A stretch of DNA of 33,616 nucleotides, from contig JAFZXE010000025.1 in assembly GCA_017616895.1 (NCBI GenBank), positions 1 through 33,616 of the forward strand, read 5' to 3'. A program made the translations under genes and the position numbers. Positions 11,157 to 25,404 of the stretch are shown in pieces (the first letter of the stretch is position 1; each line of letters begins with the position of its first letter). The notes below the pieces were generated by a model. That model was not told the DNA's origin, made no database searches, and saw nothing but the letters and a program-made list of their open reading frames with translations. The stretch is from Bacteroidales bacterium (lineage in GTDB: Bacteria > Bacteroidota > Bacteroidia > Bacteroidales > P3).

Positions 11157-14100
11157 TTTTCTTCTGCAGCTTTTTACGGGAATAATATATATAAACGACG
11201 GGAACCACAAAAATATTGAGTAAGGTGGAAGAAAAAAGTCCGCCTAGCACCACAATCGCCATCGGGGCTTGTATTTCATTACCCGCCTTCGATGCAGCTA
11301 ATATCATGGGTATCAAAGATAAAGCTGTGGTAAGTGCTGTCATGATGATAGGGTTGAGTCGGTCTAATGACCCTCTCTTGACTATCTCCTCGATGCTACC
11401 CGCCGACTGCTGCCCGCTGCCACCTAACTGCTGATACTTTGCAATCAAAAGTATCCCGTTGCGGGTGGCGATGCCGAAAAGGGTTATGAATCCGATGATG
11501 GCTGGAATGCTGAGCAAGTTCGACGACAGCTTCACGGCTATCACGCCGCCGATAAGTGCCAGCGGCAGGTTGAGCAACACTATGAGCGACAGCGACAGGT
11601 TGTGGAACTCTGTGTAAAGCAGCAGATAGATAACCAGCAGACAGAGCACAAACACTAGCACCAGCGTCCGCGTAGCTGCCTTCGCTGTCTCAAACTGTCC
11701 GCCATACTCGATGCGGTATCCCTCTGGCAGCGTCACCTCCTTATCAACAACTGATTTGATGTCCTCCACAACACTCATCGCATCTCGTCCGCTCACATTG
11801 GCCGACACCACCAGCTTGCGCTGCACATTTTCTCGCGATATCGTGTTCGGTCCCCCACACGACACCACATCGCACAACTCTGACAACGGCACTGCGACAG
11901 CCGACTGCTGCCCGCCGACAACTATCATCGCATCCTTGACATCGTCTATATTCGGACACTCGTTATTGCTCTTAAGTTTCACCACGAGGTCAAAAGCCCG
12001 CTGGCCCTCATACACCTCGCAAAGTTTTTCCCCTCCGAAGGCGAGCTCTACAAAATGGTTGAATTCTTCTATCGAAACGCCATAGTGAGCCAATTTGTCT
12101 CGGTCGGGCCTCAGCTGCAGTTGCGGCACTTCCGTCTGCTGCTCCACATTCACATCCACCAGTCCTTCCACATTCGCTGTGGCTGTCTTTATCTTGTTTC
12201 CGAGCATATAAAGCTGGCTCAGGTCGTTACCGAAGATCTTTATCGCTATCGTTGCCTGTGTGCCGCTCACCATGTGTTCTATTCTGTGCCCCAGCGGCTG
12301 TCCTATGCTCACCGCTATGCCCGGAATGTTCGCCAGCCGTGTGCGCACCTCTTCCATGAATTTTTCTTTCGAACGTTTCCCGAGTTTGAAATTGACATCA
12401 ATCTCTGCCCCGTTGGTGGCCTGCGAGTGCTCGTCTAGCTCGCCGCGTCCTGTGCGTCGTGAGGTGGAGGTAATCTCCGGCACCTCGAGCAGTTGCTCCT
12501 CAATTAGGTTGCCGATTTTGTTGCTCTCTTCGAGCGAGATTCCTGGTTTCGCCACAGCTGCAATGGTTAGCGACCCCTCGTTAAACTCTGGCAGGAACCC
12601 TCGTCCCATCGTAAACATCAACACAACGGCACCGACCAGCAGCACTCCCGTGACACCCATCACTACACCTCTGTGCCGTAAAGCTCCGTCTAACATCCTC
12701 TCATACACCCCGCTCATCTTGCGGCTCACCCAGCTTTCTTTTTCGTTCTTCGACAGGTATTTGTCCGACGAGAGGAGCATCTTGCACAACAAAGGCGTTA
12801 TCGTCATCGCCACCACAAGCGACATGAACAGCGCTGTCAGATAGGCTACTCCCAGCGGTTTAAGCATTCTTCCCTCCAATCCGCTCAGGAAGAAAAGTGG
12901 CACGAAGGTTATCATGATAATCAGCGTGGCGTGGATTATCGAGCTGCGAATCTCCGACGAGCCTTTAAACACCACCTCGTATGCCGTCTTCCTCTCGCCT
13001 TCTGGCTGTCGGTGGTTCTGCCTCAGCCGTTTATACACGTTCTCCACATCGATTATGGCGTCATCCACCAACGATCCTATCGCAATACACATTCCGCCCA
13101 AAGTCATCGTGTTTATGTCCAGCCCCATAAGATGGATACAGAGTATCGTTCCCAGCAGCGAAAGAGGTATCGCCACTATTGAAATCAACGTGGTGCGGAA
13201 ACTGCCTAGGAAAAGGAACAATATCGCTATCACGCACACCGCTCCTTCCACCAGCGACCGTCCCACATTGCCCACCGACGACGAGATGAAATCGGCTTGA
13301 CGGAATATATGGGTGTTCATCGCGACATCTTCGGGGAAGCTTTTAGCAATGTTGGCGAGATTCTTTTCTATGGCTTTCGTCACTTTCAATGTGTTGATAT
13401 TTGGCTGTTTTGACACCGAAAGGATAATCGCGGGTTCTGCATTCGCCGAAGCATAGCCTTGCTTTATTGCGTTGCCTACCTTCACTTCCGCCACATCGTA
13501 TAGCCTCACAGCCTTGCCGTCGGCCATTTTCACCAAACTCTTGCCCAGCTCTTCTACGTCGCTGCTCCGTGCCATCCCTCTAAGTGTGTATTCGTTGCCG
13601 AAATCTCTCACCACTCCGCCTGTCGAGTTGCTCCCTATCGACTTCCCTACGCTTTCTATCTCGTCCATCGTCACTCCGTATGTCGCCATTCTCATCGGGT
13701 CGGCCACAATCTGATACTGCTTGTAGTCGCCGCCTATTATGGTCACCTGCGACACTCCGCCTGTGCCCAGTATGGCTGGCTTCACCACCCACTCGGCCAA
13801 CGTCCGCAAGTCTTGCATCGTCGTATGGCTGGCTACCGATTGCCCACTGCTATCTGCTTTTGTCTGCAAACTCACAAACAATATCTCTCCCATCACGCTG
13901 CTCTGCGGAGCCATCACGGGCGTCACATCCGGTGGCAGCTGACCGCTCAATGTGGTCAGTTTCTCGCTTACTATCTGGCGTGCCTTGAACTGGTCCATTC
14001 CCCAGTCAAACTCCACAAACACAAACGAGCTGCCCTGCATCGAAGTCGAGCGCACTCGTCTTACGTTCGTCGCTCCGTTCACCGCTGTCTCTATCGGGAA

Positions 14101-14298
14101 AGTCACCATCCGCTCCACCTCTTCGGGTGCCATCCCGTGAGCGTCGGTCATCACCACCACCGTCGGTGCCGTCAGGTCGGGAAACACGTCTATGTCCGTG
14201 TTCCTGCCCGCCCAGATGCCGGCAACCGTGAGCAGCACCGCCGCCAGCAGTATGAAAAGCTTGTTGTCCAAGCTGAATTTTATGATTTTATTTAGCAT
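11143..14298 (-). CDS. Heavy-metal RND efflux pump, CusA/CzcA family
   Basis: A 1051-residue inner-membrane proton-driven pump. The start is set at 14298 (MLNKIIKFSLDNKLF); the open frame reaches 14376, but the extra 26 residues only translate a 7-bp repeat array. Family motifs are DIDVFPDLTAPTVVVMTDA (35-53), GDYKQYQIVADP, the proton-relay motif GSLVDDAIIDVENVYKRL (Asp412/413) and the C-terminal SLDRLNPIIMTAL. It forms a tripartite system with the upstream adaptor and channel. The substrate is probably Cu/Ag or Zn/Co; the His-rich partners do not decide which. Three loops (about 147-160, 791-802, 955-968) are encoded by heptanucleotide repeats. Confidence 0.94.
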   Translation of the reverse strand: MLNKIIKFSLDNKLFILLAAVLLTVAGIWAGRNTDIDVFPDLTAPTVVVMTDAHGMAPEEVERMVTFPIETAVNGATNVRRVRSTSMQGSSFVFVEFDWGMDQFKARQIVSEKLTTLSGQLPPDVTPVMAPQSSVMGEILFVSLQTKADSSGQSVASHTTMQDLRTLAEWVVKPAILGTGGVSQVTIIGGDYKQYQIVADPMRMATYGVTMDEIESVGKSIGSNSTGGVVRDFGNEYTLRGMARSSDVEELGKSLVKMADGKAVRLYDVAEVKVGNAIKQGYASANAEPAIILSVSKQPNINTLKVTKAIEKNLANIAKSFPEDVAMNTHIFRQADFISSSVGNVGRSLVEGAVCVIAILFLFLGSFRTTLISIVAIPLSLLGTILCIHLMGLDINTMTLGGMCIAIGSLVDDAIIDVENVYKRLRQNHRQPEGERKTAYEVVFKGSSEIRSSIIHATLIIMITFVPLFFLSGLEGRMLKPLGVAYLTALFMSLVVAMTITPLLCKMLLSSDKYLSKNEKESWVSRKMSGVYERMLDGALRHRGVVMGVTGVLLVGAVVLMFTMGRGFLPEFNEGSLTIAAVAKPGISLEESNKIGNLIEEQLLEVPEITSTSRRTGRGELDEHSQATNGAEIDVNFKLGKRSKEKFMEEVRTRLANIPGIAVSIGQPLGHRIEHMVSGTQATIAIKIFGNDLSQLYMLGNKIKTATANVEGLVDVNVEQQTEVPQLQLRPDRDKLAHYGVSIEEFNHFVELAFGGEKLCEVYEGQRAFDLVVKLKSNNECPNIDDVKDAMIVVGGQQSAVAVPLSELCDVVSCGGPNTISRENVQRKLVVSANVSGRDAMSVVEDIKSVVDKEVTLPEGYRIEYGGQFETAKAATRTLVLVFVLCLLVIYLLLYTEFHNLSLSLIVLLNLPLALIGGVIAVKLSSNLLSIPAIIGFITLFGIATRNGILLIAKYQQLGGSGQQSAGSIEEIVKRGSLDRLNPIIMTALTTALSLIPMILAASKAGNEIQAPMAIVVLGGLFSSTLLNIFVVPVVYIYYSRKKLQKKNGQA
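11394..11435. repeat. In-frame heptamer array in the RND pump (site 1)
   Basis: Six consecutive 7-bp units: tgctacc, cgccgac, tgctgcc, cgctgcc, acctaac, tgctgat. The 42 bp encode about residues 955-968 (QQLGGSGQQSAGSI) between the conserved IAKY and IVKRGSLDRLNP segments. Many relatives have a shorter loop there. Confidence 0.65.
11892..11926. repeat. In-frame heptamer array in the RND pump (site 2)
   Basis: Units ctgcgac, agccgac, tgctgcc, cgccgac, aactatc. It shares an exact 16-bp word (gccgactgctgcccgc at 11900-11915) with site 1 at 11402-11417. It encodes GGQQSAVAV at about residues 791-802, just before the conserved VPLSELCDVV. Confidence 0.6.
13820..13861. repeat. Possible heptamer array in the RND pump (site 3)
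   Basis: A weaker run, with taccgat, tgcccac, tgctatc and tgctttt as its best units. It encodes ADSSGQSVAS at about residues 147-160, a loop before the conserved DLRTLAEWVVKP. The similarity to the other sites is partial. Confidence 0.4.
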
Positions 14299-14304
14299 TT
14301 GCTT

Positions 14305-14395
14305 ACGAATTGAAAATTGAAAATTAAAACATTGCGAATTGAAAATTGAATTTACATTTGTCAATTCACTATTCACTATTCACCAATCACAATTT
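14305..14395. repeat. AT-rich 7-bp tandem array between pump and channel genes
   Basis: The unit changes along the array but the register is about 7 bp: gaattga/aaattga/aaattaa on the left, ctattca/ctattca/ccaatca on the right. It fills the gap between the pump start and the TolC-like stop and runs into the last codons of the channel gene (EIVIGE). Confidence 0.65.
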
Positions 14396-15572
14396 CGAAT
14401 TGCTCCAGCGCGAGCAGCGTGTGCTCCAGTTCGTGCTCTATTTCAAGTATCTCTATTTCCGAGTCGTGATAGAACTCCACTTGCTGCAGATAGCTTTCTA
14501 ACTTTATCTCGCCGGCTTCAAACGCTTTCAGCAACAGTTCTTCGCTGTTGTATTTTGCGAAAGTCTCTTTTAGGTTTTGCAGGTTGTGTTTCAGCGTCTG
14601 CGCCTTGCGGTACAACCCTTTCAGCTGGTTGTACTGTCTGGCGTAGGTGTTGTCGTATTCGGCTTGTGCATATTGTTCCAATGCCCGCGCCTTCTTTATT
14701 GTGCCTTTTTGGTGCCACAACGGAAGCGTCGCTTGCACGGTCACTCCTCTGAATGTCTCGCCCACCACGTTCTCGCTCGCATACCCCACTGCCATTCGCG
14801 GCAGCCATTCTGCCTTCGCCAGTTTTGTCTGTTCCTCCGACAGCGTTTGTTGTTGTTTCAGCAACATCAGTTCGGGGTTCTTTGCCGCAGCCTTTTCAAA
14901 CCATTGCTCGAAGTTCTCTGGCAGCACGACATCGTCAAAACTGTCTTTGTCGAAAGCCAACGGCTTCCCTCCGTTCAGCATCTGCAGGTTGTCCAGCATC
15001 ATGTCGCGCTCGGCTTCCGCGCTGTGCAGCTTATTTTCTATCGCGGCCAGATCCATCTCCACTCGATGGTATTCCAGTATTCCGCATTCGCCTGCTTCCA
15101 TCTTCCGCTCAAAAAGCTCCGCAACCCTCCGCGCGCTCTCCACACAGTGTGCATAGAGTGTCACGTATGCGTTGTAGTATATCATGTCGGCGCAGGCGTT
15201 CTTCGTTTCCGTTATCAGTTCTATCCTATGTCTGGCATATTCGTTGTCGCTAAACTCTGTCATAAGCTTGCGTATGCGGCTTTTATGCACATACACCGAC
15301 GGCATATCGAACGGCTGCGTGACCGACAAATCCCAGCGTTTCCCTATGGTGCTGGGCGCACCCCAGTAGTAGCCGAATGCCACCTCTGGATTGTCCAAAA
15401 ACGCGGTGGCGTTCGCCTCTGCCTTTTCGGCTTCGTTCTTTGCTTTCAGCGCCTTGAACCCAGGGTTGTTTTTCTCCAACGAGTCAAGCACCCATTGGTA
15501 GCGGCTCTGCGCAAAGCCATCCTCCGCCAAAACCGCCAAAACCAGCAAAAATATTATCCTATATATATTCAT
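14376..15572 (-). CDS. TolC-family outer-membrane channel
   Basis: A 398-residue outer-membrane efflux channel. The signal peptide ends near ...AEDGFAQ (residue 22). Two long alpha-helical hairpin repeats follow: about 28-200 (NNPGFKALKAKNEAEKAEANATAFLDNPEVAFGYY begins the first) and about 225-395 (KNPELMLLKQQQTLSEEQTKLAKAEWLPRMAVGY begins the second). This is the CusC/CzcC subtype, which carries metal ions out with the adjacent pump and adaptor. The last codons lie inside a 7-bp repeat array, so the C-terminus may have been reshaped. It is 92 bp from the adaptor gene, a gap filled by an 8-bp array. Confidence 0.92.
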   Translation of the reverse strand: MNIYRIIFLLVLAVLAEDGFAQSRYQWVLDSLEKNNPGFKALKAKNEAEKAEANATAFLDNPEVAFGYYWGAPSTIGKRWDLSVTQPFDMPSVYVHKSRIRKLMTEFSDNEYARHRIELITETKNACADMIYYNAYVTLYAHCVESARRVAELFERKMEAGECGILEYHRVEMDLAAIENKLHSAEAERDMMLDNLQMLNGGKPLAFDKDSFDDVVLPENFEQWFEKAAAKNPELMLLKQQQTLSEEQTKLAKAEWLPRMAVGYASENVVGETFRGVTVQATLPLWHQKGTIKKARALEQYAQAEYDNTYARQYNQLKGLYRKAQTLKHNLQNLKETFAKYNSEELLLKAFEAGEIKLESYLQQVEFYHDSEIEILEIEHELEHTLLALEQFEIVIGE

Positions 15573-15593
15573 CTTGAATCAATTAAACAAACT

Positions 15594-15659
15594 AACGTAT
15601 CAACATATCAACGTGTCAACATAAAAACATATCAACGTATCAACATTAAACATATCAAC
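15594..15659. repeat. 8-bp tandem repeat array between channel and adaptor genes
   Basis: Eight near-identical units: aacgtatc, aacatatc, aacgtgtc, aacataaa, aacatatc, aacgtatc, aacattaa, acatatc (one base short), then aac. The reverse complement reads gttgatat/gttgatac and matches the array at 33444-33510. In the operon transcript it would lie in the adaptor-channel intergenic spacer. Confidence 0.85.
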
Positions 15660-15664
15660 AATCC

Positions 15665-16873
15665 TCAATGCACATGTCCCGCATGTGGGTCCAGTGCTCC
15701 CGCTCCCTGTGCCAGTTTCACCATCGTCGCACCTTTCGTCACCACGCGTTCGCCGGCCTTCAACCCCTTCGTCACCACCGTCCTTTTCCCGTCGTTTCCG
15801 CCAAGCGTCACAAGCCGTTTCTCATACAGTTCCGGCTCCACCTGCACAAAGACGAAGTTGTTCCCCATCTCCTCCACAATCCCGTCGTTCGCCACAGCAA
15901 TCTGCTCTTCGTCCGACTCCGAGATGATATATATCTTCACAAAGCTGCCGGTTATCAGGTCTCCGCAGTTCTGTATTCTGAACGTCACAGGTATCAGCGG
16001 GTTGTTACCGTCCGATGCCTTTCCGTAGCTCACAAACGCTCCCTTCAGTTCCTCCAGCGAACACACACCGCCTCCGTTGGGCAGCTCTATGTTCGCCGTC
16101 TTGATGTTCTTCAGGGTTGCGTAGTATCTCGGCGACAGCTCTGCCCTCAGGTACAGGTCTTTGTTTTGCGACACAGTCACCACCGCCTGTCCGGCTTCCA
16201 CATATCCGCCGTTCCTCACATTCACCGTCTTCACATATCCGCTCATCGGTGCGTTCACCACCGACCCCGACGGCGAGAAATTCCCTTTCAGGTTGTCGTA
16301 TGCCGCCTTGGCGCTCTCGTATGCCGCACGGCTGCGTTCCAGCTCTGCCTTCGACACTATCCTGTCTTTCGCCAGCTCCGACTTACGCTCATATTCCGAT
16401 TCGGCGGCTTGATAGTTCGCCGCAGCCTCCTGATAGCGCACAGTCATGTTCCCGTCGGCCATCCCGCTGCTCTCTATCGTAAACAGCCGCTGCCCTTTCT
16501 TCACGCTCGCGCCTTCTACGATATTGTTCCCGGCAAACCTCACCACCCCCGACGCTCTCGCCGCCGCCACCTGCTCGTCGCCCGCAGCCGAAGTCACCTG
16601 CGCCGTCGTCTGTATCACCTGTCCGCACCGCTCCAGCTTCACCTCTTCGGTGGCGAAATCCACGATGCCGCTCTGCTCCTCGGTAAACCTCACGCAGTTA
16701 GCCGGCACCTCGTGCTCATGCTCGTCCTCGTCGTGATGGTGCTCGTGGTCATGGTCATGGTCGTGATGGTGATGATGTTCATGTTTATGTTCGTGGTCGT
16801 GTTCATGGTGACAAGCTGTCGCGCCGCCCAGGCACAACCCCAATGCTATAAAAATTACAATCTTACATTTCAT
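15665..16873 (-). CDS. CusB-type periplasmic adaptor with His-rich N-terminus
   Basis: A 402-residue membrane-fusion protein. The ATG at 16873 is chosen over an upstream GTG at 16879 because an aggag ribosome site lies 8 nt before it. An N-terminal signal or lipoprotein segment ends at Cys near residue 21, followed by about 35 residues that are mostly His, Asp and Glu (HEHDHEHKHEHHHHHDHD...), a metal-binding stretch. A barrel-sandwich hybrid and helical hairpin follow (QVTSAAGDEQVAAARASGVV, then YQEAAANYQAAESEYERKSEL), then VNAPMSGYVKTVNVRNGGYVEAGQ. The C-terminus is again His-containing (DPHAGHVH). It links the pump to the channel and probably delivers metal. Confidence 0.93.
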   Translation of the reverse strand: MKCKIVIFIALGLCLGGATACHHEHDHEHKHEHHHHHDHDHDHEHHHDEDEHEHEVPANCVRFTEEQSGIVDFATEEVKLERCGQVIQTTAQVTSAAGDEQVAAARASGVVRFAGNNIVEGASVKKGQRLFTIESSGMADGNMTVRYQEAAANYQAAESEYERKSELAKDRIVSKAELERSRAAYESAKAAYDNLKGNFSPSGSVVNAPMSGYVKTVNVRNGGYVEAGQAVVTVSQNKDLYLRAELSPRYYATLKNIKTANIELPNGGGVCSLEELKGAFVSYGKASDGNNPLIPVTFRIQNCGDLITGSFVKIYIISESDEEQIAVANDGIVEEMGNNFVFVQVEPELYEKRLVTLGGNDGKRTVVTKGLKAGERVVTKGATMVKLAQGAGALDPHAGHVH

Positions 16874-16975
16874 GGTCACAACTCCTGTATTAAATTACTG
16901 AAACCCACACTCGGAAATATTCCAAATCCAATAGGAACTTCCCGAGCATAAATTAGATAAACGCTTATCCTTTTT
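16874..16975 (-). promoter_or_regulatory. Leader between His-rich gene and cusB-like gene
   Basis: An imperfect inverted repeat lies here (minus strand ctcgggaagttcc ... ggaatatttccgag), within a 100-nt spacer that ends in an aggag ribosome site. It could tune expression of the adaptor relative to the small protein. No promoter box was recognised. Confidence 0.35.
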
Positions 16976-17386
16976 TCAGCAATTCACAGGAGGCCCTCGC
17001 AGCTGTTCCGCCCTCACAAACCTCGACGGCAACAGCTCCTTGCGGTCATAATATTCAACCTGCCGACCACAGTCAATAAATTCCCACTGCCCGCTAACTG
17101 CTAACAACTGCCCGCTAACCGCTAACTGCTGACAACAGCCCGCTAAAAAAAACTTATCATCCTTAGTGCTTATCACCAGTTGCGACAGAAGGTCCTGCAG
17201 CTTGCAGCATCCGTCGTGGTGGTCGCAGTCGTGGTTATGGTGGTCGTGGGGGCAACTCAGTTCGTTCTCGAACACCAGACCTCCGTCGCTGCAGTCGTGA
17301 TGATGATGGGGCACCACCGAGTGCAGCACGATGATGAAGCAAGCCATAGCCATCATCGTCGCCGCCGCAAAGTTCCTATGTCCCAT
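16976..17386 (-). CDS. Small His/Cys-rich membrane-anchored protein, probably metal-related
   Basis: A protein of about 136 residues, not matched with certainty to a named family; it resembles the small uncharacterised proteins in front of Bacteroidota metal-efflux operons. The start is placed at 17386 or 17395, because a -7 box at 17405-17412 makes the more upstream ATG (17434) unlikely. It has one N-terminal hydrophobic segment (about 7-25), a metal-binding-like region (PHHHHDCSDG, CPHDHHNHDCDHHDGCC) and a C-terminal part with an in-frame 21-residue insert made of nine 7-bp repeats (LAVSGQLLAVSGQ). Being first in the operon, it may bind or sense metal in the periplasm. Confidence 0.6.
   Translation of the reverse strand: MGHRNFAAATMMAMACFIIVLHSVVPHHHHDCSDGGLVFENELSCPHDHHNHDCDHHDGCCKLQDLLSQLVISTKDDKFFLAGCCQQLAVSGQLLAVSGQWEFIDCGRQVEYYDRKELLPSRFVRAEQLRGPPVNC
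17085..17147. repeat. Nine-unit heptamer array inside the His-rich gene
   Basis: Nine exact-register units: cactgcc, cgctaac, tgctaac, aactgcc, cgctaac, cgctaac, tgctgac, aacagcc, cgctaaa. The length is 63 bp, a multiple of 3, so the frame is kept, and it encodes LAVSGQLLAVSGQ and flanks. Confidence 0.85.
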
Positions 17387-17404
17387 CCCAATCATTTCCG
17401 CCTG

Positions 17405-17412
17405 CAAAGATA
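17405..17412 (-). promoter_or_regulatory. Promoter -7 box of the metal-efflux operon
   Basis: On the minus strand TATCTTTG matches TAnnTTTG and lies about 10-20 bp before the likely start of the His-rich gene. The leader would be very short. Confidence 0.55.
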
Positions 17413-17580
17413 CAAACTTATTGCAAAACAACACAATTTAGAACAATAAAACAAACCCCATACGCCTTGGTAGCCGTATTTGACCTATATGACTTACTGC
17501 CCCAGCAACCCCAGTCACCACCAGCATGCCGACTGCACACACCACAACCAACAAAGGCATATACAAACCATAGAGCCGCC

Positions 17581-17699
17581 TAGGAGTTATGTAGGAGAAA
17601 CCTAGGAGGGGTATAGGAGGGGTAACGAAGGGGTATAGGAGGGGTAACGGCCTATATACGGAGTTGATACGGCTTTGATACGGAGTTAATACGGAGGGG
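17581..17699. repeat. 11-bp tandem repeat array
   Basis: Units in order: taggagttatg, taggagaaacc, taggagggg (9 bp), tataggagggg, taacgaagggg, tataggagggg, taacggcctat, atacggagttg, atacggctttg, atacggagtta, atacggagggg. All but one are 11 bp. The period equals that of the array at 1-358, but the unit sequence differs. Confidence 0.85.
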
Positions 17700-17825
17700 A
17701 AGACACTTTATCACTGAACATCAATATGTTGCAGCGGCTAGTTCTGCAAAGTCGAATACACACGTCTGTGCAATATCCTGACAGACACTTTCTTGCATAT
17801 GTTCATAACAATCGGCTTCACACCA

Positions 17826-17833
17826 CAAATATA
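17826..17833 (-). promoter_or_regulatory. Candidate minus-strand promoter with no gene close by
   Basis: TATATTTG on the minus strand fits TAnnTTTG, with TTG plus an A-run 12 bp upstream, as at other promoters here. The next start codon is about 430 bp away, so it would make a long leader or a noncoding RNA that includes the 11-bp array. Confidence 0.35.
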
Positions 17834-17926: not shown

Positions 17927-20416
17927 TTATTTCAAGAATCCATATTGGTAAACCTTCGGTTCAATATGGGCGGCGAGTTTGCGCATTGCTTGCTTCAAGG
18001 CATTATGCAGATTGGTGTATGTTTCATCCGTACTGTCAGAATTCATCTGCTCTTTTCCGCTCTTGGTAATTTTAGTTCCCTGAAAATATAGTCGAATGTC
18101 GTAGTAACTCGCGTTCGGATTGGCGTTTTCTTGACTGTGGTAGTATCTCCATAACTCACGTCCTGAATCCATAACAGCCTTTGCTTCCGATGATAAATAA
18201 TCAAGTGGACAAATTTCAACAGTTTTTCCCTGTTCTGACGGTTTGGAGAAAAGATCTGCAGCTTCAGTATTTTGAATGACAATATGCTTTTCATGCAAGT
18301 AGTCGCTCATAAAGTGGCTGGCGAAATTGTCTTGCGCACCAACCTCTTGTTCTGTAAAGGGAATCCAATAATTAACACCCAAAGAGCCACGGATATTATT
18401 GGAATTGGAAAAGACGGAAAAAATGAGGCAATCCGTCTGAAACTCCAAATCATGTTGCCAATTGTCATCTGGATAAAGGAACTGGTCTCGATCATTAAGC
18501 CAATTGGGTTCGACACAATGGCATACAGCAAGATACACAGATACTTCCCGTATATTCTTGTCTGTGACCCATGAACCACGTGGCGATTTCATTTGACACT
18601 TATCGTTCATTATGAAGTTATAATTCACATTAGACATATCATGCGAGCGACAAGACATATATCCAATTTTCTTTTCGTTATATTGATTTCGAGTTTCAAT
18701 AAGCCAGTCGTTTATTGACTTGGTTTCATCTAATGCCCATAACTTTTTTTGTTGAGTTTGAATTCCGTCATTGTTGTAAACATCAGATACCGTGTGTGTG
18801 AATATTTCGGGTTCGCTTAAATCCCATATAAAAAAGCCGATAGGAAACTTCCCTGTGACATTGTCAAAAGAGTTGGCTGACACTAAAAAGCTACGTTTCA
18901 GTCTTGCTTTAAATGCTTTTCGGAATTCTCGGAAGTTGGGTGCTTGCATTATTTTCAGCTTTGAAAATTCAGCAAGTATTGCACCTGGTATTTCGCAATA
19001 AATTCGAATAAAGAATTGAGCAAACAATTCTCTGCCTGCAATACCTATCACATTGAGATATTTACGATAAGTATGGTGTGATACAGCTACGTTTGTCTTT
19101 TGCTTCTCTTCTCCATCCGAATTGACAATTACACGTCGGTTACCCGCTTCTGCATATGGCGGGTTTATATACACAATGAGTCGTTTGCGTTTTTCAGGGT
19201 CATTAATGACAGTGCGAAGGCTTTCGGGCAGGTCTTTGAAATCGTCGTTGAGAAAGTCGAACTGAAATATATGTTTCTCCAGTAGGTTCAGCTCGCCATC
19301 TTCGGCACGCTTTTTCATTACCTGCACATCTCCGTGGTCGAGTGTGGAAGCCCAAACCCGATATGGTTCAGTGAGGCCAAATAGGAGATTTCCTGTACCT
19401 GCACAGCAATCCCACACATAATACTGCTGTTGCCAATCTTCGCCCAATTCATCGGCGATATAACGCTGCGAAAGTTCCACCCACTGCGGAGGAGTGAAAA
19501 ATGCTCCTTGATACTGTCGCAAATTATGAGGGATGAGCAGGTCTCGACGCTCAAGAATAATGTCGATAGCTTCTTGTCTTGGTGGACGCTTGTATTTATT
19601 CCAGAAAGCACGATAGGCCTTCATTCCATCGTTGAATGCACATTCGCTGAATAGCATCTTGCCACTCTGCATAATCTGCTCAAGTATCTTGTATTCATCG
19701 CCACGAAGCACAACAGCGAGGTCCGACCTCAGAGTGTAATCACCACGAGAAATTAGGTCGGCAAAGAAGAAATCAGCCACTCGGGTTGCAGGTATATCGT
19801 TCCAATCGACACCGATTGTTGGCTTCACCTCCTCAACCCAACGTTGAAAAACAAATAGGTAGTTATTTCTTGTTATTGCAACGCCATCAGTTTTACGACC
19901 GTCACGAAAGTTTTTTTTGATAAACTGGCGTAGCTCTTTTTCGTCCTTTTTGAGGTTAAATTTGGCGATATGCTCGCGCAAAGTATCCTCAACCATTGCC
20001 TTCAGCTGCTTGAACTCCTTGGTGTTGTGATTACTTGGAGTAACGTTCCAGTTGAAGTCGTTTTGGTATAATACGCTGACAATATGGTGAAACTCAACGA
20101 AAGCTATTTTCTCTGCATCGAAGGCACCCAGAAACGTCGGCGGCATGTGCTTCTCATGAATATGAGCCTTGCCTATTGTGAGGATAAGCTGAATAAACGA
20201 ATCGTTAATACTGTGAGACGAGCCTTTCTTGGCCTCCGCCCAAAGAAACCATTCTCGTTCAAAGAGTTCTTGTTGAGAAGGGTCATCACGACGCGATGTA
20301 ACGGCGAAGTCTATATCTCCAAGAATAGGTGTAGCGTCGTATGCCGAGAAAAATTGGTCGCGTAATGAGTTTTTTATTTCTTCTTCACGAATGGTGACGG
20401 TCTGATCCATAATCAC
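17927..20416 (-). CDS. Single-chain restriction enzyme and N6-adenine methyltransferase (type IIG-like)
   Basis: An 829-residue fused restriction-modification enzyme. The N-terminus has a PD-(D/E)xK-like nuclease core: GDIDFAV (Asp36) and WAEAKKG (Glu61, Lys63). A helical linker leads to an N6-adenine methyltransferase with QGAFFTPPQWV (303-313), SAM-binding motif I DCCAGTGN (336-343) and catalytic NPPY (418-421). The last ~350 residues should hold the target-recognition domain. Both activities in one chain, with no hsdS or hsdR beside it, fit type IIG. A RhuM-like gene lies upstream on the same strand. The gene has its own promoter and a structured ~290-nt leader. The DNA target cannot be read from sequence. 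Confidence 0.85.
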   Translation of the reverse strand: MIMDQTVTIREEEIKNSLRDQFFSAYDATPILGDIDFAVTSRRDDPSQQELFEREWFLWAEAKKGSSHSINDSFIQLILTIGKAHIHEKHMPPTFLGAFDAEKIAFVEFHHIVSVLYQNDFNWNVTPSNHNTKEFKQLKAMVEDTLREHIAKFNLKKDEKELRQFIKKNFRDGRKTDGVAITRNNYLFVFQRWVEEVKPTIGVDWNDIPATRVADFFFADLISRGDYTLRSDLAVVLRGDEYKILEQIMQSGKMLFSECAFNDGMKAYRAFWNKYKRPPRQEAIDIILERRDLLIPHNLRQYQGAFFTPPQWVELSQRYIADELGEDWQQQYYVWDCCAGTGNLLFGLTEPYRVWASTLDHGDVQVMKKRAEDGELNLLEKHIFQFDFLNDDFKDLPESLRTVINDPEKRKRLIVYINPPYAEAGNRRVIVNSDGEEKQKTNVAVSHHTYRKYLNVIGIAGRELFAQFFIRIYCEIPGAILAEFSKLKIMQAPNFREFRKAFKARLKRSFLVSANSFDNVTGKFPIGFFIWDLSEPEIFTHTVSDVYNNDGIQTQQKKLWALDETKSINDWLIETRNQYNEKKIGYMSCRSHDMSNVNYNFIMNDKCQMKSPRGSWVTDKNIREVSVYLAVCHCVEPNWLNDRDQFLYPDDNWQHDLEFQTDCLIFSVFSNSNNIRGSLGVNYWIPFTEQEVGAQDNFASHFMSDYLHEKHIVIQNTEAADLFSKPSEQGKTVEICPLDYLSSEAKAVMDSGRELWRYYHSQENANPNASYYDIRLYFQGTKITKSGKEQMNSDSTDETYTNLHNALKQAMRKLAAHIEPKVYQYGFLK

Positions 20417-20500
20417 TAAGTATTACAACAGTTTTGTTATGTTTGTGATTATGCCCCTCTTTGTAATAGACATAAAAGAAATCCGTGAGACCTTTTTGTC

Positions 20501-20606
20501 TAAACGGAGGCTCGCCAAAGCCTGTACTACAACAAGAAAGCCCACGGATACCGTGAGCGTTTCACTTTCTCTTGTAGTACATTTGAAATTTGGCGATTTC
20601 CGTTTA
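20501..20606 (-). promoter_or_regulatory. Long imperfect hairpin in the restriction-gene leader
   Basis: Nested pairing arms: taaacgga (20501-20508) with tccgttta (20599-20606); cgccaaa (20513-20519) with tttggcg (20589-20595); tgtactac (20523-20530) with gtagtaca (20574-20581); gaaag (20536-20540) with ctttc (20565-20569); cacgg with ccgtg around 20549. The whole 106-bp element folds on itself. It lies downstream of the promoter and 85 bp before the start codon. It could be a regulatory RNA structure or a mobile-element remnant. Confidence 0.7.
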
Positions 20607-20610
20607 CAAA

Positions 20611-20717
20611 GAAAAGCAAAAACGCTTCTAAATTATTTAATTATCGTTATTTATCTATCTCTATCGTTATGATTTTGGTTAATAATTATCGGTTTGTTTT
20701 CACTTTGCAAAGATACA
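20611..20717. repeat. Promoter-leader direct repeat, copy 1 (restriction gene)
   Basis: About 105 bp nearly identical to 21621-21728 (some five or six differences). Its right end contains the minus-strand -7 box, so it forms the first part of the transcript of the restriction gene. Confidence 0.85.
20708..20715 (-). promoter_or_regulatory. Restriction-gene promoter, -7 box
   Basis: Minus-strand TATCTTTG, a perfect TAnnTTTG match, followed by the shared leader. It lies 20 bp beyond the stop codon of the RhuM-like gene, so the restriction gene can be transcribed on its own. Confidence 0.6.
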
Positions 20718-20734
20718 GCTAATAATTGTCTCAT

Positions 20735-21562
20735 CTACATATTATCCAGCAACTCTTTCGTTTTCATTTCCATCTTGGAGAAGGCGAACCACTTCTTGCC
20801 GAGGTCCTTCAATGAGGCTCCGATATGATAGACGGTGTTGTCGATGCATAGGAAGCGGTCGTGGACCTTGTCGAAGGGCTTTACTTCGATGGGTTGGTAC
20901 TGGGCGTTGTGCTTTGCAAGGTCGAGCGAGAGCTGCTGCTTTATCTTTTGCGTATAGATGGTGGCAGAAACTCGCTCGCCTCGTTTGTCGAGCATCGACA
21001 GCACGGTGTCGTCCACATAGTTGTCGAACAGCACGATGCTTTTCTTCGCCGAGCGTATAAGGTCGGATACGAAGGTGTAGGCGTCGAAAATCTGCCCGTC
21101 GAAAAAGATGCCCTCCACCGGAGGCAACGAGGTGCGCACAAAGAAGTCGATCTTTTGGTCATGTTCTTCTATTTTACGCTCTATGCTGATCAAACGCTGA
21201 TTGATGGCATAACCGCGCAAAAGATAATCTTTCAATACGACATTTGCCCACTTTCGAAACTGAACACCTCGCTGAGATTTTACCCTATAGCCAACAGAGA
21301 TTATGACATCAAGATTATAATATTCGACTTGATAGGTTTTGCCATCTGCGGCAGTTGTCGCAAATTTTGCGACAACTGGAGTGCACTCCAGTTCTTCTGT
21401 AAGTGCATTTGCAATATGCTTGCCAATGGTTTTCACATCACGTTGGAACAGAGAGGCCATTTGTTGACGATTCAGCCACACGGTTTCCTCATTCAAACGC
21501 ACTTCTAACTTGACATTGTCATCAGGTTGGTAAAGAATTATTTCGCCCTTTTCTTGGTTCAT
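20735..21562 (-). CDS. RhuM-like protein fused to a PLD-like domain
   Basis: A 275-residue protein. Residues 1-120 match the RhuM ('virulence RhuM') family: EVRLNEETVWLNRQQMASLFQRDVKTI, then FATTAADGKTYQVEYYNLDVIISVGYRVKSQRGVQFRKWAN. A short coiled segment (about 122-145) leads to a C-terminal PLD-like domain (FDAYTFVSDLIRSAKKSIVLFDNYVD, then HDRFLCIDNTVYHIGASLKDLGKKWFAF). The HxKx4D motif of phospholipase D nucleases appears as H234-x-R236-x4-D241, so catalysis is doubtful. RhuM genes often sit in restriction-modification loci; their role is not known. A control or accessory part for the adjacent restriction enzyme is inference. Confidence 0.82.
   Translation of the reverse strand: MNQEKGEIILYQPDDNVKLEVRLNEETVWLNRQQMASLFQRDVKTIGKHIANALTEELECTPVVAKFATTAADGKTYQVEYYNLDVIISVGYRVKSQRGVQFRKWANVVLKDYLLRGYAINQRLISIERKIEEHDQKIDFFVRTSLPPVEGIFFDGQIFDAYTFVSDLIRSAKKSIVLFDNYVDDTVLSMLDKRGERVSATIYTQKIKQQLSLDLAKHNAQYQPIEVKPFDKVHDRFLCIDNTVYHIGASLKDLGKKWFAFSKMEMKTKELLDNM
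21352..21393. repeat. Two overlapping palindromes inside rhuM
   Basis: The first is a 27-bp palindrome (13-bp arms, cagttgtcgcaaa, one central base) at 21352-21378. The second is a perfect 20-bp palindrome (aactggagtg/cactccagtt) at 21374-21393. They share five bases. They encode residues about 57-70 (ELECTPVVAKFATT), of which the VVAKFATT part looks family-conserved. Confidence 0.85.
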
Positions 21563-21590
21563 TTAATATGCTGTTATTATTTTCATTACA

Positions 21591-21615
21591 AGTTGTCGCA
21601 AATTTTGCGACAACT
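21591..21615. promoter_or_regulatory. 25-bp palindrome upstream of rhuM (candidate operator)
   Basis: Perfect 12-bp arms (agttgtcgcaaa / tttgcgacaact) around one base, 28 bp before the rhuM start codon and about 100 bp after its promoter. The 25 bp, and one more base on the right, are identical to the palindrome inside rhuM. It may be an operator for self-control or an RNA hairpin near the ribosome site. Confidence 0.6.
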
Positions 21616-21620
21616 GAAAT

Positions 21621-21728
21621 GAGAAAGCAAAAACTCTTCTAAATCATTTAATTATCGTTGTTTATCTATCGCTATCGTTATGATTTTGGTTAATAATTAT
21701 CGGTTTGTTTTCACTTTGCAAAGATACA
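21621..21728. repeat. Promoter-leader direct repeat, copy 2 (rhuM)
   Basis: Second copy of the ~105-bp element at 20611-20717. It ends at the same point, just past the -7 box, and is followed 6 bp downstream (in transcription sense) by the 25-bp palindrome. Confidence 0.85.
21719..21726 (-). promoter_or_regulatory. rhuM promoter, -7 box
   Basis: Minus-strand TATCTTTG. The sequence upstream of it differs from that at the restriction gene, so the two promoters share the -7 box and leader but not the -33 region. Confidence 0.6.
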
Positions 21729-21864
21729 AAAATATTGAAAACAAGCAAAATCAGTGGTTGACTCTCAACGGGGGATGAGTATATTTTGAACTGTAACAAC
21801 TGTAAATGTAACGCAAGTCAATCAAACGATTGTTTGTAAAGTATAATTTGTCAAAGTTTCTGAG

Positions 21865-21872
21865 TATCTTTG
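21865..21872 (+). promoter_or_regulatory. bcp promoter, -7 box
   Basis: TATCTTTG followed by CA, 20 bp before the ATG at 21893. It rules out the upstream ATG at 21830 as the start. Confidence 0.6.
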
Positions 21873-21892
21873 CATCACAAATCCACTCAACT

Positions 21893-22339
21893 ATGTTACA
21901 AAAAGGTACAAAAGCCCCTTATTTTGAGGGCGTTGATGAAAACGAGAACCCCGTCAAACTTACCGATTTCGCCGGCAAGAAACTCGTCCTTTACTTCTAT
22001 CCCAAGGACAGCACTCCCGGATGCACCGCCGAGGCCTGCGACCTCCGCGACAACTACGAGCGCTTCATCGCCCTCGGCTATAGTGTACTCGGCGTAAGCC
22101 GCGACTCCGCCGCCTCTCACCGCCGTTTCATCGAGAAATACTCGCTCCCCTTCCACCTCATCGCCGACACCGACCTCACCATCCTCAAAGCCTACGAGGC
22201 CTGGGGCGAGAAGAAGAACTACGGCAAGGTCAGCATGGGCACCCTCCGCACCACCTACGTCATCGACGAACAGGGAATCATCATCGACGCCATCGGCAAG
22301 GTCGATACCAAGAACCACGCTGCGCAAATAATCAAATAA
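21893..22339 (+). CDS. bcp: Thioredoxin-dependent thiol peroxidase (bacterioferritin comigratory protein)
   Basis: A 148-residue peroxiredoxin of the BCP/PrxQ type that reduces hydrogen peroxide and organic hydroperoxides. The start is MLQKGTKAPYF at 21893, downstream of the promoter; an open frame continues 21 codons upstream but would precede the transcript. The active site is PKDSTPGCTAEACDLRD, with peroxidatic Cys in PGCT and the PrxQ resolving Cys five residues later. Typical motifs GYSVLGVSRDS and RTTYVIDEQG follow. It is 11 bp before the vanX-like gene and probably heads a bcp-vanX-CDF operon. Confidence 0.95.
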   Translation: MLQKGTKAPYFEGVDENENPVKLTDFAGKKLVLYFYPKDSTPGCTAEACDLRDNYERFIALGYSVLGVSRDSAASHRRFIEKYSLPFHLIADTDLTILKAYEAWGEKKNYGKVSMGTLRTTYVIDEQGIIIDAIGKVDTKNHAAQIIK

Positions 22340-22350
22340 AGTACAATCCC

Positions 22351-23124
22351 GTGAAAACAAAAGTCCTTTTTGCAGCGTTTCTCTGCTGCCTCTTCTTATC
22401 ATGCAAGCAAAAGCCGACCGAGGCCGTCGTATGCGACTCTGCCGTTCAGCAGGACATAACCCTTTCGTCATCCGACTTCGTCAACGTCAGCGATGTGGTG
22501 CCCGACGCCCTTTTGGAAATCCGCTACTACAGCGCCTATAATTTCGTGGGAGCCCGTGTTGACGGCTACGAGCAGCCTAACGCCCTTATGACCCGCCAGT
22601 CGGCCGACAGCCTCCGTGCGGTTGCTGACGAACTCCGAGCCAAAGGCTATGCCATAAAGGTTTACGACGCCTACCGTCCTCAGATGGCCGTTGACCACTT
22701 CGTCCGCTGGGGCGAGGACATCGCCGACACCGCCATGCGTCACGTCTTCTATCCTAACGTTGACAAAAGCCGTCTTTTTGACCTTGATTATATCGCCCGC
22801 AAGAGCAGCCACACCCGCGGCTCGACGGTTGACCTCACCCTCTTCGACATCGCCTCGGGCAAGGAACTCGACATGGGCGGCCCCTTCGACTGGTTCGGCC
22901 GCGAGAGCCATCCCGACTGCGGTGGCCGCTATATCGATAAGGTTCGTATCGAATATCTCCCCAACGACACCATCTCACGTGAACAATTCAACAACCGCAT
23001 GCTGCTTCGCGAGGCTATGATGAACCACGGTTTCAAGCCCTACGAGTGCGAATGGTGGCACTTCACCCTGAAGGACGAACCCTATCCCGACACCTACTTC
23101 AACTTCCCCGTGAAAGAGTTGTAG
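22351..23124 (+). CDS. D-Ala-D-Ala dipeptidase (M15D, VanX/DdpX-like) lipoprotein
   Basis: A 257-residue zinc dipeptidase that starts at GTG. The signal peptide carries a lipobox ending LFLSC (Cys18), so the enzyme should be anchored at the cell envelope. Family residues are present: DAYRP (Arg109), SSHTRGSTVDL with zinc ligands His154 and Asp161, and EWWH with Glu234 and His237. It would split D-Ala-D-Ala released during peptidoglycan turnover. In vancomycin-resistance clusters VanX works with VanH and VanA; neither is here, so a wall-recycling role is more likely than resistance. Confidence 0.9.
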   Translation: MKTKVLFAAFLCCLFLSCKQKPTEAVVCDSAVQQDITLSSSDFVNVSDVVPDALLEIRYYSAYNFVGARVDGYEQPNALMTRQSADSLRAVADELRAKGYAIKVYDAYRPQMAVDHFVRWGEDIADTAMRHVFYPNVDKSRLFDLDYIARKSSHTRGSTVDLTLFDIASGKELDMGGPFDWFGRESHPDCGGRYIDKVRIEYLPNDTISREQFNNRMLLREAMMNHGFKPYECEWWHFTLKDEPYPDTYFNFPVKEL

Positions 23125-23142
23125 CACACCATTAATAATACT

Positions 23143-24027
23143 ATGGATAGGGAACGCGAGATATATAAAGTTACTTTAGTGGGCAGCATAGTCAACGTGC
23201 TGCTCACCGTCTTTAAGTTCGTTGCTGGCATATTGGGTCACAGCGCCGCTATGACCGCCGATGCCGTTCATTCTCTCTCCGATTTGCTTACCGACGCTGT
23301 GGTCATTGTCTTCGTCCGCATAAGCTCCAAACCAGAGGACTGCGGCCACGACTACGGTCACGGCAAATACGAAACCCTCGCCACCGCCATAATCGGTTTC
23401 CTGCTGGCTGCGGTGGCTATCGGAATTGGCTACAACGCCGTGTCCGCCATTATCCTATGGCTGCATGGCGAATCCCTTCCCGCTCCTGGTATGTTGGCTC
23501 TTTGGGCGGCTATTCTATCCATTGTGGCAAAAGAGGTTGTGTATCAATATACCGTCCGTAAGGCTCGCAAGCTCAACTCCCCTGTGGTGGAGGCCAACGC
23601 CTGGCACCATCGCAGCGACGCGCTCTCGTCATTGGGCACCCTTGTGGGCATCGGCGGCGCCATACTGCTCGGCAACCGATGGACCATTCTCGACCCGCTG
23701 GCTTCGCTGGTTGTCACTTTCTTCATTCTCCGTGTTGCCTATAAACTTCTGAAACAGGGCTTCAGCGAGTTGCTTGAAGCCTCGTTGCCCGACGATGTCG
23801 AAAACGAGATTCTCTCCATCGTGACCGCTTTCCCCGATGTGTCAGACCCGCACCACCTGCGCACCCGTCGCATCGGCAGCCGCTATGCTATAGAGTTGCA
23901 TATCCGCATGGACGGCTCCCTGCCTCTCTCGGTAGCTCACGAGCGCACACGCGAAATCGAAGCCGCCCTGAAAGCCCGGTTCGGCGACTCGACGCATATC
24001 AACCTGCACGTCGAGCCTATCAAGTAA
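23143..24027 (+). CDS. Cation diffusion facilitator transporter
   Basis: A 294-residue inner-membrane CDF protein that exports divalent metal ions by proton exchange. The two metal-site HxxxD motifs are in transmembrane helices 2 and 5: DAVHSLSD (His43, Asp47) and HHRSD (His155, Asp159), with DYGHGKYE in between. About six membrane segments are followed by a cytoplasmic C-terminal domain (about 210-294). The pattern resembles Zn/Fe/Mn-type members; the ion cannot be fixed. It follows the dipeptidase by 18 bp. Confidence 0.93.
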   Translation: MDREREIYKVTLVGSIVNVLLTVFKFVAGILGHSAAMTADAVHSLSDLLTDAVVIVFVRISSKPEDCGHDYGHGKYETLATAIIGFLLAAVAIGIGYNAVSAIILWLHGESLPAPGMLALWAAILSIVAKEVVYQYTVRKARKLNSPVVEANAWHHRSDALSSLGTLVGIGGAILLGNRWTILDPLASLVVTFFILRVAYKLLKQGFSELLEASLPDDVENEILSIVTAFPDVSDPHHLRTRRIGSRYAIELHIRMDGSLPLSVAHERTREIEAALKARFGDSTHINLHVEPIK

Positions 24028-24039
24028 AAAGGATTGTCG

Positions 24040-25404
24040 TCACGCGAAGAGTTTGCGGAAGGCGTCTTCTATGACGGCTAGTTCGACTATCTCTATCGGG
24101 TATTTCTTTTTGTCTAAGCCTTTGGTGTTGTAGCGCGAGACGAATATCTTCTCGAATCCTAATCGTCCCGCTTCGGCTATGCGCTGCTCCACTCTCGTCA
24201 CTGGGCGTATCTCGCCGTTGAGTCCCATCTCTGCAGCCATACACACCGTCGGTGGGATGGGGATATCCACGTTGCTGGAAAGTATCGAACAAGCCACCGC
24301 CAGATCTATCGCCGGGTCGCTGACTCGCAACCCGCCGGCGATATTCAGGAATACATCCTTTGCTCCGAGCTTGAATCCGCAGCGTTTCTCCAGCACTGCG
24401 AGCAGCATGCTGAGGCGTCGGAAGTCGAAGCCGTTGGCGTTGCGCTGGGGTGTGCCATATACGGCGGAGGAGACCAGCGACTGCACCTCGATGAATATCG
24501 GTCGCGCCCCTTCCAGCGTGGCCGACACCGCCGAGCCGCTCAACGTCTCGTCGCGTTGCGAGAGTAGTATCTCGGAGGGGTTGGGCACTTCGCGGAGGCC
24601 GCTGTTCAGCATCTCGAAGATGCCGAGTTCGGCTGTCGAACCGAAGCGGTTCTTCAAAGCACGTAGGATGCGGAAGCCGTAGTTGCGGTCGCCTTCGAAC
24701 TGAAGCACCGCATCTACTATGTGTTCCATCACCTTCGGTCCTGCCAGAGTGCCGTCTTTCGTAATATGACCAATCAGCAAAACGGGCACACCCGTCTGCT
24801 TGGCGTAGTGTTGGAAGAGTGTGGTGCACTCCCTGATTTGCGATATGCTGCCTGCCGAGGAGTCGATGTCCTCCGACGATATTGTCTGTATGGAATCCAC
24901 TATCAGCAGCTCGGGCTTCACCGCTTCGATATGCTCGAAGATGCGCTTCGTGCTGGTTTCCGACACAACATACATCTCACCCTGCGGTTCCCCAATGCGG
25001 TCGGCTCGCATCTTTATCTGCTGCTCGCTCTCCTCGCCGCTGACATAGAGGAGCCGCTTGCCCTTCATGGCGAGGGCTGTCTGCAGCAGCAGCGTCGATT
25101 TGCCTATACCGGGTTCTCCTCCCAACAGCAGAAGGCTGCCGGGCACGATGCCGCCGCCAAGCACACGGTCAAACTCCTCGCAATGTGTCTGCATGCGTAC
25201 CGTCTCGTCATACTTCACCTCCTCGATTCGCACGGGTTCCGACTGCTGTCCGCCGACTGCCGACTGTCGGATGCTTGGCGTCTCCCGTTGCACCACCTCC
25301 TCGTCGAAGGTGTTCCACTTGCCGCACTCGGGGCAGCGTCCAAGCCACGAACTGCTCTGATAGCCGCACTCGCGGCAGAAGAAATATCGTTTTGCTTTAG
25401 CCAT
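24040..25404 (-). CDS. radA: DNA repair protein RadA
   Basis: A 454-residue RecA-like branch-migration ATPase used in recombination. Its N-terminal zinc finger has Cys10, 13, 24 and 27 (CRECGY ... CPECGKW). Walker A is GGEPGIGKST (95-104), Walker B ELLIVDSIQT, the RadA motif KNRFGS is present, and a Lon-like C-terminal domain (SDPAIDLAVACSILSS) follows. The linker at residues 43-56 (PSIRQSAVGGQQSE) is encoded by a run of heptanucleotide repeats. It starts 3 bp from the sodB stop and ends convergently 12 bp from the CDF gene. Confidence 0.96.
   Translation of the reverse strand: MAKAKRYFFCRECGYQSSSWLGRCPECGKWNTFDEEVVQRETPSIRQSAVGGQQSEPVRIEEVKYDETVRMQTHCEEFDRVLGGGIVPGSLLLLGGEPGIGKSTLLLQTALAMKGKRLLYVSGEESEQQIKMRADRIGEPQGEMYVVSETSTKRIFEHIEAVKPELLIVDSIQTISSEDIDSSAGSISQIRECTTLFQHYAKQTGVPVLLIGHITKDGTLAGPKVMEHIVDAVLQFEGDRNYGFRILRALKNRFGSTAELGIFEMLNSGLREVPNPSEILLSQRDETLSGSAVSATLEGARPIFIEVQSLVSSAVYGTPQRNANGFDFRRLSMLLAVLEKRCGFKLGAKDVFLNIAGGLRVSDPAIDLAVACSILSSNVDIPIPPTVCMAAEMGLNGEIRPVTRVEQRIAEAGRLGFEKIFVSRYNTKGLDKKKYPIEIVELAVIEDAFRKLFA
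25237..25278. repeat. In-frame heptamer array in radA
   Basis: Units ttccgac, tgctgtc, cgccgac, tgccgac, tgtcgga, tgcttgg. It has the same period and a very similar unit to the arrays in the RND pump and the His-rich gene. It encodes the linker between the zinc finger and the ATPase core. Confidence 0.65.

Follow-up and report, generated by a model that had tools for sequence, protein, structure and literature searches.

Short tandem repeats of differing unit at shared protein sites in a genus of uncultured Bacteroidales

Heptamer arrays in three genes of a Bacteroidales contig

The stretch of DNA analyzed here, called the window below, is a contig of 33,616 nucleotides (JAFZXE010000025.1) from a Bacteroidales bacterium. 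It is contig 9 (1-33616) of a genome that we refer to as G000, which spans 2.61 Mb in 31 contigs and is 88% complete. Three of its minus-strand genes carry runs of a heptamer with the consensus YGCYRAC. The first encodes an RND efflux pump of the AcrB family that is CusA-like (11143..14376; Pfam ACR_tran, E 2.2e-269), with CusA as its best solved relative and three sites of interest; the part of its open reading frame (ORF) that precedes Met-27 is probably not translated. The second is a small His-rich ORF (16976..17434) with a weak match to DUF6769 (Pfam E 4.9e-5, below the curated cut-off). The third is radA (24040..25404), recognized by its Pfam domains. ORFs were called throughout with a greedy longest-ORF script, as opposed to a gene finder.

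We defined a strict run as at least three consecutive YGCYRAC units, each matching the consensus at 6/7 positions or better. The window contains four strict runs, all on the plus strand and all within minus-strand genes: two in the pump gene, one in the His-rich gene and one in radA. Markov-2 shuffles of the window (n = 100) yielded a mean of 0.06 such runs and a maximum of 1. The first pump array (11394..11435, plus strand, opposite to the gene) comprises six units, the first four of which reach 6/7, and codes QQLGGSGQQSAGS within residues 981-995. The second (11892..11926, plus strand) has a strict core of three units at 11899-11919 and codes VVGGQQSAVAV. A TGCTAAC-type array in the His-rich gene (17085..17147, plus strand) codes QQLAVSGQLLAVSGQ; its strict core (17113-17133, three units) is embedded in a longer array for which TRF reports periods of 21 and 28 over 17086-17146. 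The radA array (25237..25278, plus strand) lies between the zinc-ribbon and ATPase domains, includes a strict run of four units (25237-25264) and codes RQSAVGGQQS.

An initial annotation of this DNA had described heptamer runs in these three genes that yield similar peptides. The four clear runs bear this out, as do the encoded peptides, which are of the types GSGQQSAG, VVGGQQSAV, LAVSGQLLAVSGQ and RQSAVGGQQS. It had also listed a weaker run in the pump gene, at 13820..13861 (plus strand, residues 172-186). This stretch is heptamer-like and degenerate, and it reaches none of the array thresholds used; the segment that contains it is longer in all nine genus copies than in copies from other families.

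One unit recurs in many unrelated genes

A genome-wide search for three YGCYRAC units (up to two mismatches), as the initial annotation had advised, returned 66 forward and 78 reverse matches in G000, 144 altogether, against 1 + 0 for the backwards pattern. Arrays occur in genes and between them. For a closer view we surveyed 597,136 bases of G000, fetched in part because of hits, and identified 65 YGCYRAC arrays, 25 of which are within ORFs. The reversed consensus gave six arrays in the same bases, each overlapping one already listed. In the 400 kb that were not hit-selected (L180-L197, L260 and L261), 6 of 18 arrays fall in ORFs and 12 outside them, so this family is mainly intergenic; ORFs cover 89% of a similar G000 sample. 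Because stretches of G000, and of the sister genome described below, were fetched on account of hits, array densities in them do not represent genome rates.

Within genes, the unit is antisense to the coding strand in 24 of the 25 arrays, and the exception is a weak array in a radical SAM gene. A slightly different rule gives 26:1 and a looser one 30:4. The single orientation that the initial annotation had noticed in the window thus holds for its four strict runs and, with this one exception, for the genic arrays of G000. The 24 antisense arrays occupy 22 ORFs; Pfam matches were obtained for 18 of the 19 that lie beyond the window. Hosts include RadA, UvrB, RNase R (array within the RNB domain), a MutS2-like protein, SerRS, QueA, NqrA (two arrays) and NqrB, as well as a dihydrouridine synthase, an M16 peptidase, a TonB receptor, a ThiF protein and RapZ-C, Smr, LysM, PEGA, 4Fe-4S and Por-secretion-tail proteins. 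All of these arrays code variants of SAVSGQQ. The proposal that repeats have invaded genes is accordingly well founded, both here and in the sister genome.

One part of that proposal failed. Unit numbers in genes had been thought to favor multiples of three, and this rule applies to only 8 of the 25 genic arrays of G000 as against 20 of the 40 others, which reveals no bias; the pump array at 11892-11926 itself spans 35 bp. We also asked whether 7- and 8-bp arrays favor the ends of genes. At stops, within a distance of 12 bp, we counted 14 arrays in G000 (12.9 expected) and 23 in the others (15.3 expected), and within 12 bp of an ORF start 18 in G000 (11.4 expected) and 20 in the others (16.8 expected). 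On these counts we claim no such preference.

A sister species carries another unit at the same sites

Among the matches listed, RadA of G000 is closest to proteins of uncultured Bacteroidales from rumen and gut (70-81% identity to the nearest 34 loci), and it is 75% identical to that of Candidatus Colimorpha pelethequi (Bacteroidales incertae sedis). Orthologues of radA at 52-93% identity are present in 36 of the 40 relatives searched. The sister of G000 in this set is a close congener, G014, with 93% identity in RadA and 90% in the RND pump.

G014 has an abundant repeat of its own. Searched as three units with up to three mismatches, the octamer CAAGCAAT has 130 + 128 = 258 matches in G014 and 3 in G000 (control 2). 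Every one of the 32 stretches of G014 that we surveyed was picked at hits; they contain 18 genic arrays in 17 ORFs, all 18 in sense orientation and coding NQAIKQSS. The longest runs to 26 units and 70 residues. A known family could be assigned to 14 of the 17 host ORFs (RNase R and 13 of the 16 scanned; three have none), and these include a class I tRNA synthetase with the array inside its catalytic domain, DXP synthase, an ABC ATPase, a MutS-like protein, an M16 peptidase, a porin and a WbqC protein.

At three sites the two species can be compared directly: the RadA linker, the RNase R segment and the QueA segment each carry the heptamer in G000 and the octamer CAAGCAAT in G014. Several other congeners have GAAAGTG-type heptamers in the RadA linker, and the second RadA segment of Candidatus Colimorpha pelethequi (L056) contains the octamer CTCAACAA. 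The His-rich gene site of G014 has, by eye, TGACCAC/TGATAAC heptamers. At a lenient threshold, a TGCYRAC-like run precedes a CAAGCAAT run in QueA of G014, and UvrB and the first RND site of G014 retain runs of the TGCYRAC-like type. These runs point to TGCYRAC as the older family in that genome.

Neither family is strictly species-specific. CAAGCAAT has 64 matches in G022 and 76 in G002 (7 in G001 and 4 in G010), and TGCYRAC has 86 in G010 and 30 in G014, with any match at all in 15 of the 40 relatives searched. The families are thus patchy in their distribution.

To place these sites in a wider context, we compared seven protein families: RadA, RNase R, QueA, NqrA, UvrB, NqrB and RND. Arrays of period 7, 8, 9 or 11 are present in 42 of 149 genus copies and in none of the 45 copies drawn from the order's other families, a contrast for which a Fisher value ignores the relatedness of the copies. 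These counts are biased as to G000, since the families were picked because its copy held a repeat; without its own copies, 38 of 142 genus copies carry arrays. Control periods gave five arrays (period 10) and none (period 13). Arrays cluster at shared reference positions, mostly with different units: RNase R 474-480 (six species), QueA 139-154 (eight), NqrB 96-97 (three) and NqrA 119-137 (seven), 338-340 (five) and 418-425 (five). Units differ among congeners at shared sites of NqrA and NqrB and at the second RNase R site.

At the RND sites, the RadA linker, RNase R, QueA, NqrA and NqrB, copies from other families either have no counterpart of the repeat residues or show unrelated residues there. 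The initial annotation had named the same residues in unrelated genera as the mark of chance codon patterns, and at none of these sites did we find it. The repeat sites that we examined vary among homologues or bear indels.

Some of these variable segments contain another kind of element in other species. By eye we noticed in-frame palindrome-like elements in the RadA segment (L038/L129 and L041), in the NqrA segment (L341 and L348) and in UvrB (L390); some are of the CCCCTCTC..GGAGAGGGG..GGGGGTGAGG type, and L041 and L390 have different ones. Elsewhere among the species, these segments hold short tandem repeats.

Some array sites are longer and others keep their length

The initial annotation had asked whether the repeat-coded stretches are insertions relative to homologues, and the answer differs from site to site. 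The first two RND sites are longer than their homologues: the one at 11394..11435 by about 4 residues relative to other families (about 11 in G014), and the one at 11892..11926 by 3 residues relative to other families and most congeners. In addition, one G014 protein has a 12-residue repeat-bearing stretch that is absent from its G000 orthologue, through either gain in G014 or loss in G000. Other sites are filled without net change of length. The RadA linker keeps its length within a few residues throughout the order as its content changes. The QueA segment is 9 residues longer in G000 and 16 longer in G014, but six congeners with scored arrays, and one more judged by eye, are no different in length from repeat-free copies. 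Together with the NqrB lengths considered below, these comparisons indicate that arrays are in some cases added and in others occupy a stretch that already existed.

A class of repeats with preferred periods

The heptamer and octamer belong to a broader class. In a G000 sample of 393,616 bases, made up of the window and eighteen 20-kb stretches picked without regard to hits, we found 51 arrays of period 7, 30 of period 8, 15 of period 9 and 30 of period 11, compared with one of period 10 and none of period 13. Shuffles of this sample produced no arrays of any period from 5 to 13. Units in G000 include TTTTAAG, TGCYRAC, AACATATC and ATTCACT among others, and those of G014 are of the AAGCAATC type. 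A survey of eight congeners (97-138 kb each, overlapping arrays merged) gave a similar picture: periods 7, 8 and 11 were present in seven of the eight and period 9 in six, periods 10 and 13 appeared in none, and periods 12 and 6 reached at most 3 and 2 per 100 kb. The eighth congener, G016, has two arrays of period 11 and none of period 7, 8 or 9 in the part surveyed (G016:C1:1-100000).

Several further arrays lie in the window. A heptamer array of another family of like kind, GTGACCT/GTGAACC, is intergenic at 33510..33593 (plus strand). An octamer array of AACATATC (15594..15660, plus strand) is upstream of the minus-strand gene 14376-15572, and was assigned by the ORF script to a shadow ORF that overlaps on the plus strand. 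Tandem arrays of 11 bp, a second size class present in all eight sampled congeners, occur at 325-355, 17603-17646 and 17656-17696. Two neighboring proteins of the CusA-like efflux locus also have His-rich stretches (window 16709-16809 and 17190-17310), the first of which is coded by imperfect repeats of 6-36 bp. On the scale of assemblies, several contigs start within arrays (G000 C3:1 and C20:2; G010 C1:5, C5:6 and C74:6); repeats are probably undercounted as well as a cause of breaks in assemblies.

Stop codons and the orientation of genic arrays

The orientation of arrays in genes has a simple correlate in the units themselves. Read forward, TGCTGAC and TGCTAAC put stops in every frame; reversed, a TAG arises from the T variant only and in one codon phase. 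At the codon position that would make this TAG, the variable base is C in all 20 units and T in none. Elsewhere in genes the same base is C in 22 units and T in 10, and between genes the counts are 51 and 51. Both this pattern and the 24:1 orientation are, however, largely true by construction, because an in-frame stop excludes an array from the ORF count. We therefore rejected the codon-phase pattern as proof of selection.

Contrasts between genes and gaps are more telling about orientation than the genic ratio. TTCAAAA, which has stops on one strand only, is oriented 12:1 in genes versus 7:7 in co-directional gaps, and the G014 unit 19:0 in genes versus 7:8 in gaps. All 33 arrays of TTTTAAG, a unit whose stops fall on both strands, lie outside genes. 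It is the one family of that sort that we checked, and its absence from ORFs hints at a simple criterion by which repeats are admitted to genes.

Origin of the arrays

We propose that these genomes host successive, patchy families of dispersed short tandem repeats (7, 8, 9 and 11 bp) that turn over fast and are tolerated in variable protein segments, an account to which we give a probability of about 70%. The dispersal of single units over unrelated genes and both strands, the differing units of sister species at shared sites and the absence of arrays from copies in other families are direct observations. TGCYRAC is the prominent family in G000 and CAAGCAAT that in G014, each common to a few other congeners and rare in most of those examined. 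Arrays would lengthen and shorten by replication slippage, and new sites may be seeded by copying of existing arrays, through template switching or conversion at short homologies. Genic arrays would persist in variable segments, probably loops or linkers to judge from the sequences, wherever the frame stays open, and stop codons in the units would leave it open mainly in one orientation. Since neither 7 nor 8 is divisible by 3, a run of at least three units gives a single periodic peptide in every frame, and any landing phase consequently yields a like hydrophilic stretch rich in Gln and Ser. The peptides themselves most likely do nothing specific.

Several observations weigh against this account. 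The seeding step itself was not observed. In a unit-likeness table with 45 of the 48 7- and 8-mers from the seven-family survey, units of different genes are only modestly more alike within species (0.640) than between species (0.605), a difference that 74 of 2000 label shuffles reach; some arrays may thus be local duplications. The genic orientation and the missing T fit tolerance and are no proof of selection. Two families depart from the stop rule, with genic ratios of 2:2 for AACATATC and 4:2 for ATTCACT (shadow ORFs are possible). Co-directional gaps are themselves strand-biased for TGCYRAC (23:4), ACCACTG (8:0) and ATTCACT (12:3), a bias for which stop codons do not account. NqrB is 7 residues longer in G000 than in G014, yet four array-free congeners match the G000 length; the difference therefore does not amount to a clean insertion of three units, and it leaves the direction of change, gain or loss, ambiguous. 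Finally, TGCTRAC arrays are also present in 25 of 394 other genomes of the phylum; among the matches listed, 19 of these 25 genomes have one locus and 6 have two or more.

As a separate observation on these phylum-wide matches, TGCTAAC/TGCTGAC arrays turn up repeatedly in a single distant family (f41 in the sample of the phylum: G101, G167, G199, G267, G275, G290, G302, G322, G326, G337, G361 and G404), where they are often long, perfect and confined to a single locus.

The main rival to dispersed families is purely local slippage, in which each array duplicates a local sequence of 7-11 bp, nothing spreads, and a property of the polymerase of the genus favors these step sizes. Slippage has been proposed for heptamers, a proposal attributed to Mrazek et al. 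2007 in PMC4679880, and it agrees with the many units per genome, with a period spectrum common to most sampled species though their units differ, and with the weak likeness of units within species. It does not explain how a unit can exceed 100 matches in one genome while staying near background in its sister, or how one unit comes to sit in 22 unrelated ORFs. Genic units resemble the intergenic vocabulary of their own species more than a foreign vocabulary of equal size (7-mers, 0.736 vs 0.656, 21 genic arrays; 8-mers, 0.767 vs 0.689, 7 arrays), an excess that is suggestive only, as the trials are not independent. We consider local slippage unlikely as the whole explanation, and it may account for part of the arrays. 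A bolder version of dispersal, which we put forward tentatively and with no greater confidence, is an active repeat-writing process whose machinery copies a 7-8 bp unit, different in sister species, into many sites in waves, overwriting or adding to earlier arrays where permissive sites already have them. If this were true, a spectrum of 7, 8, 9 and 11 with hardly any 10 or 13 would be the signature of the machinery, and its targets would include variable segments of essential proteins.

The remaining alternatives are less probable still. Repeat-bearing cassettes of a small transposable element, similar to a miniature inverted-repeat transposable element (MITE) or a Rickettsia palindromic element and mobilized by a transposase in trans, would suit the dispersal over both strands, the in-frame position in unrelated genes and the one clear presence/absence pair. 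We regard such an element as improbable given that arrays of 3 to 26 units have no fixed length, that some sites are filled without net length change and that aligned sites show no common flanks by eye; neither terminal inverted repeats nor target-site duplications were noticed by eye in those sites, for which no dedicated search was made. It is more doubtful yet that the peptides are linkers or tags under positive selection, serving as flexible spacers or partner-bound sites. Their sites are reused and the peptides are hydrophilic and rich in Gln and Ser, but sister species differ in peptide at the same site, the same families also lie between genes, and none of the 45 other-family copies has an array. 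Linkers do tolerate biased composition, which would leave room for chance codon patterns, but this idea is refuted by the 4 runs against 0.06 expected in the window, the 144 matches against 1 genome-wide and the 0 of 45 homologues from other families.

Implications and comparison with known repeats

The G000 repeats rewrite segments of UvrB, RNase R, RadA, MutS2, SerRS, QueA and Na+-NQR subunits, and several of these proteins have a different unit at that site in a sister species. Two questions thereby become testable: by what route a 7-bp unit disperses, and what share of the change in protein loops is due to repeat mutation versus selection on residues. G016, as a nearly array-free congener, provides a natural control for the cause of the arrays.

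Heptamer repeats of cyanobacteria are known by the name STRR. The initial annotation had likened the arrays in the window to these and to the palindromic elements of Rickettsia, a comparison that serves as an analogy and does not extend to membership in either group.

Rickettsia palindromic elements are about 150 bp long, contain a conserved ORF and lie in frame in genes (PMC10969869). The repeats described here resemble them in being in frame in unrelated genes (22 ORFs in G000 and 17 in G014) with a common peptide, and are unlike them in having a unit of 7-8 bp, 3 to 26 units and no constant length.

Heptamer repeats of bacteria have so far been described as mostly intergenic (PMC4679880, PMC4692102). 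Long simple sequence repeats (Mrazek et al. 2007, via PMC4679880) have units of 5-11 nt, with heptamers the most abundant. The present repeats conform to this class in that head-to-tail units of periods 7, 8, 9 and 11 exceed chance (shuffles 0) and one unit recurs at many loci (144 matches in G000 and 258 in G014); they differ from those repeats in that both 7- and 8-mers occupy many ORFs. In Nostoc and Xanthomonas, the heptamers GGGGA(C/T)T and GGGAATC were chosen for G-quadruplex formation and are discussed as regulatory, and 68% are intergenic in Nostoc (PMC4692102, which also mentions heptanucleotides of Calothrix). Those heptamers, like the present ones, are dispersed and mainly intergenic, have strand preferences near genes and lie in part within genes. 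The available parts of that account describe no difference of unit between sister species at one protein site.

A close precedent is provided by TAACTGA direct repeats, reported from Beggiatoaceae, cyanobacteria and five Bacteroidetes (MacGregor 2015, PMC4679880). These are mostly intergenic and near start codons, and forward copies put stops in all three frames; 11 ORFs contain reverse repeats, mainly at protein ends and in many cases in hypothetical proteins (PMC4679880). Both systems consist of dispersed heptamer arrays whose genic copies have the reverse orientation, and TAACTGC resembles TAACTGA. The exact unit TAACTGA was nevertheless not the one found, the G000 unit being TAACTGC/TGACTGC. 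TAACTGA is moreover one unit across phyla, whereas here a single unit is found in 22 ORFs of G000, itself sampled in part, often in the middle of the protein, and those sites have a different unit in a sister species. A search of the open-access literature with few terms, and hence a weak one, returned no account of sister species whose core enzymes carry different units at a common site. The kind of repeat is known, and this contrast between sister species is apparently the new part.

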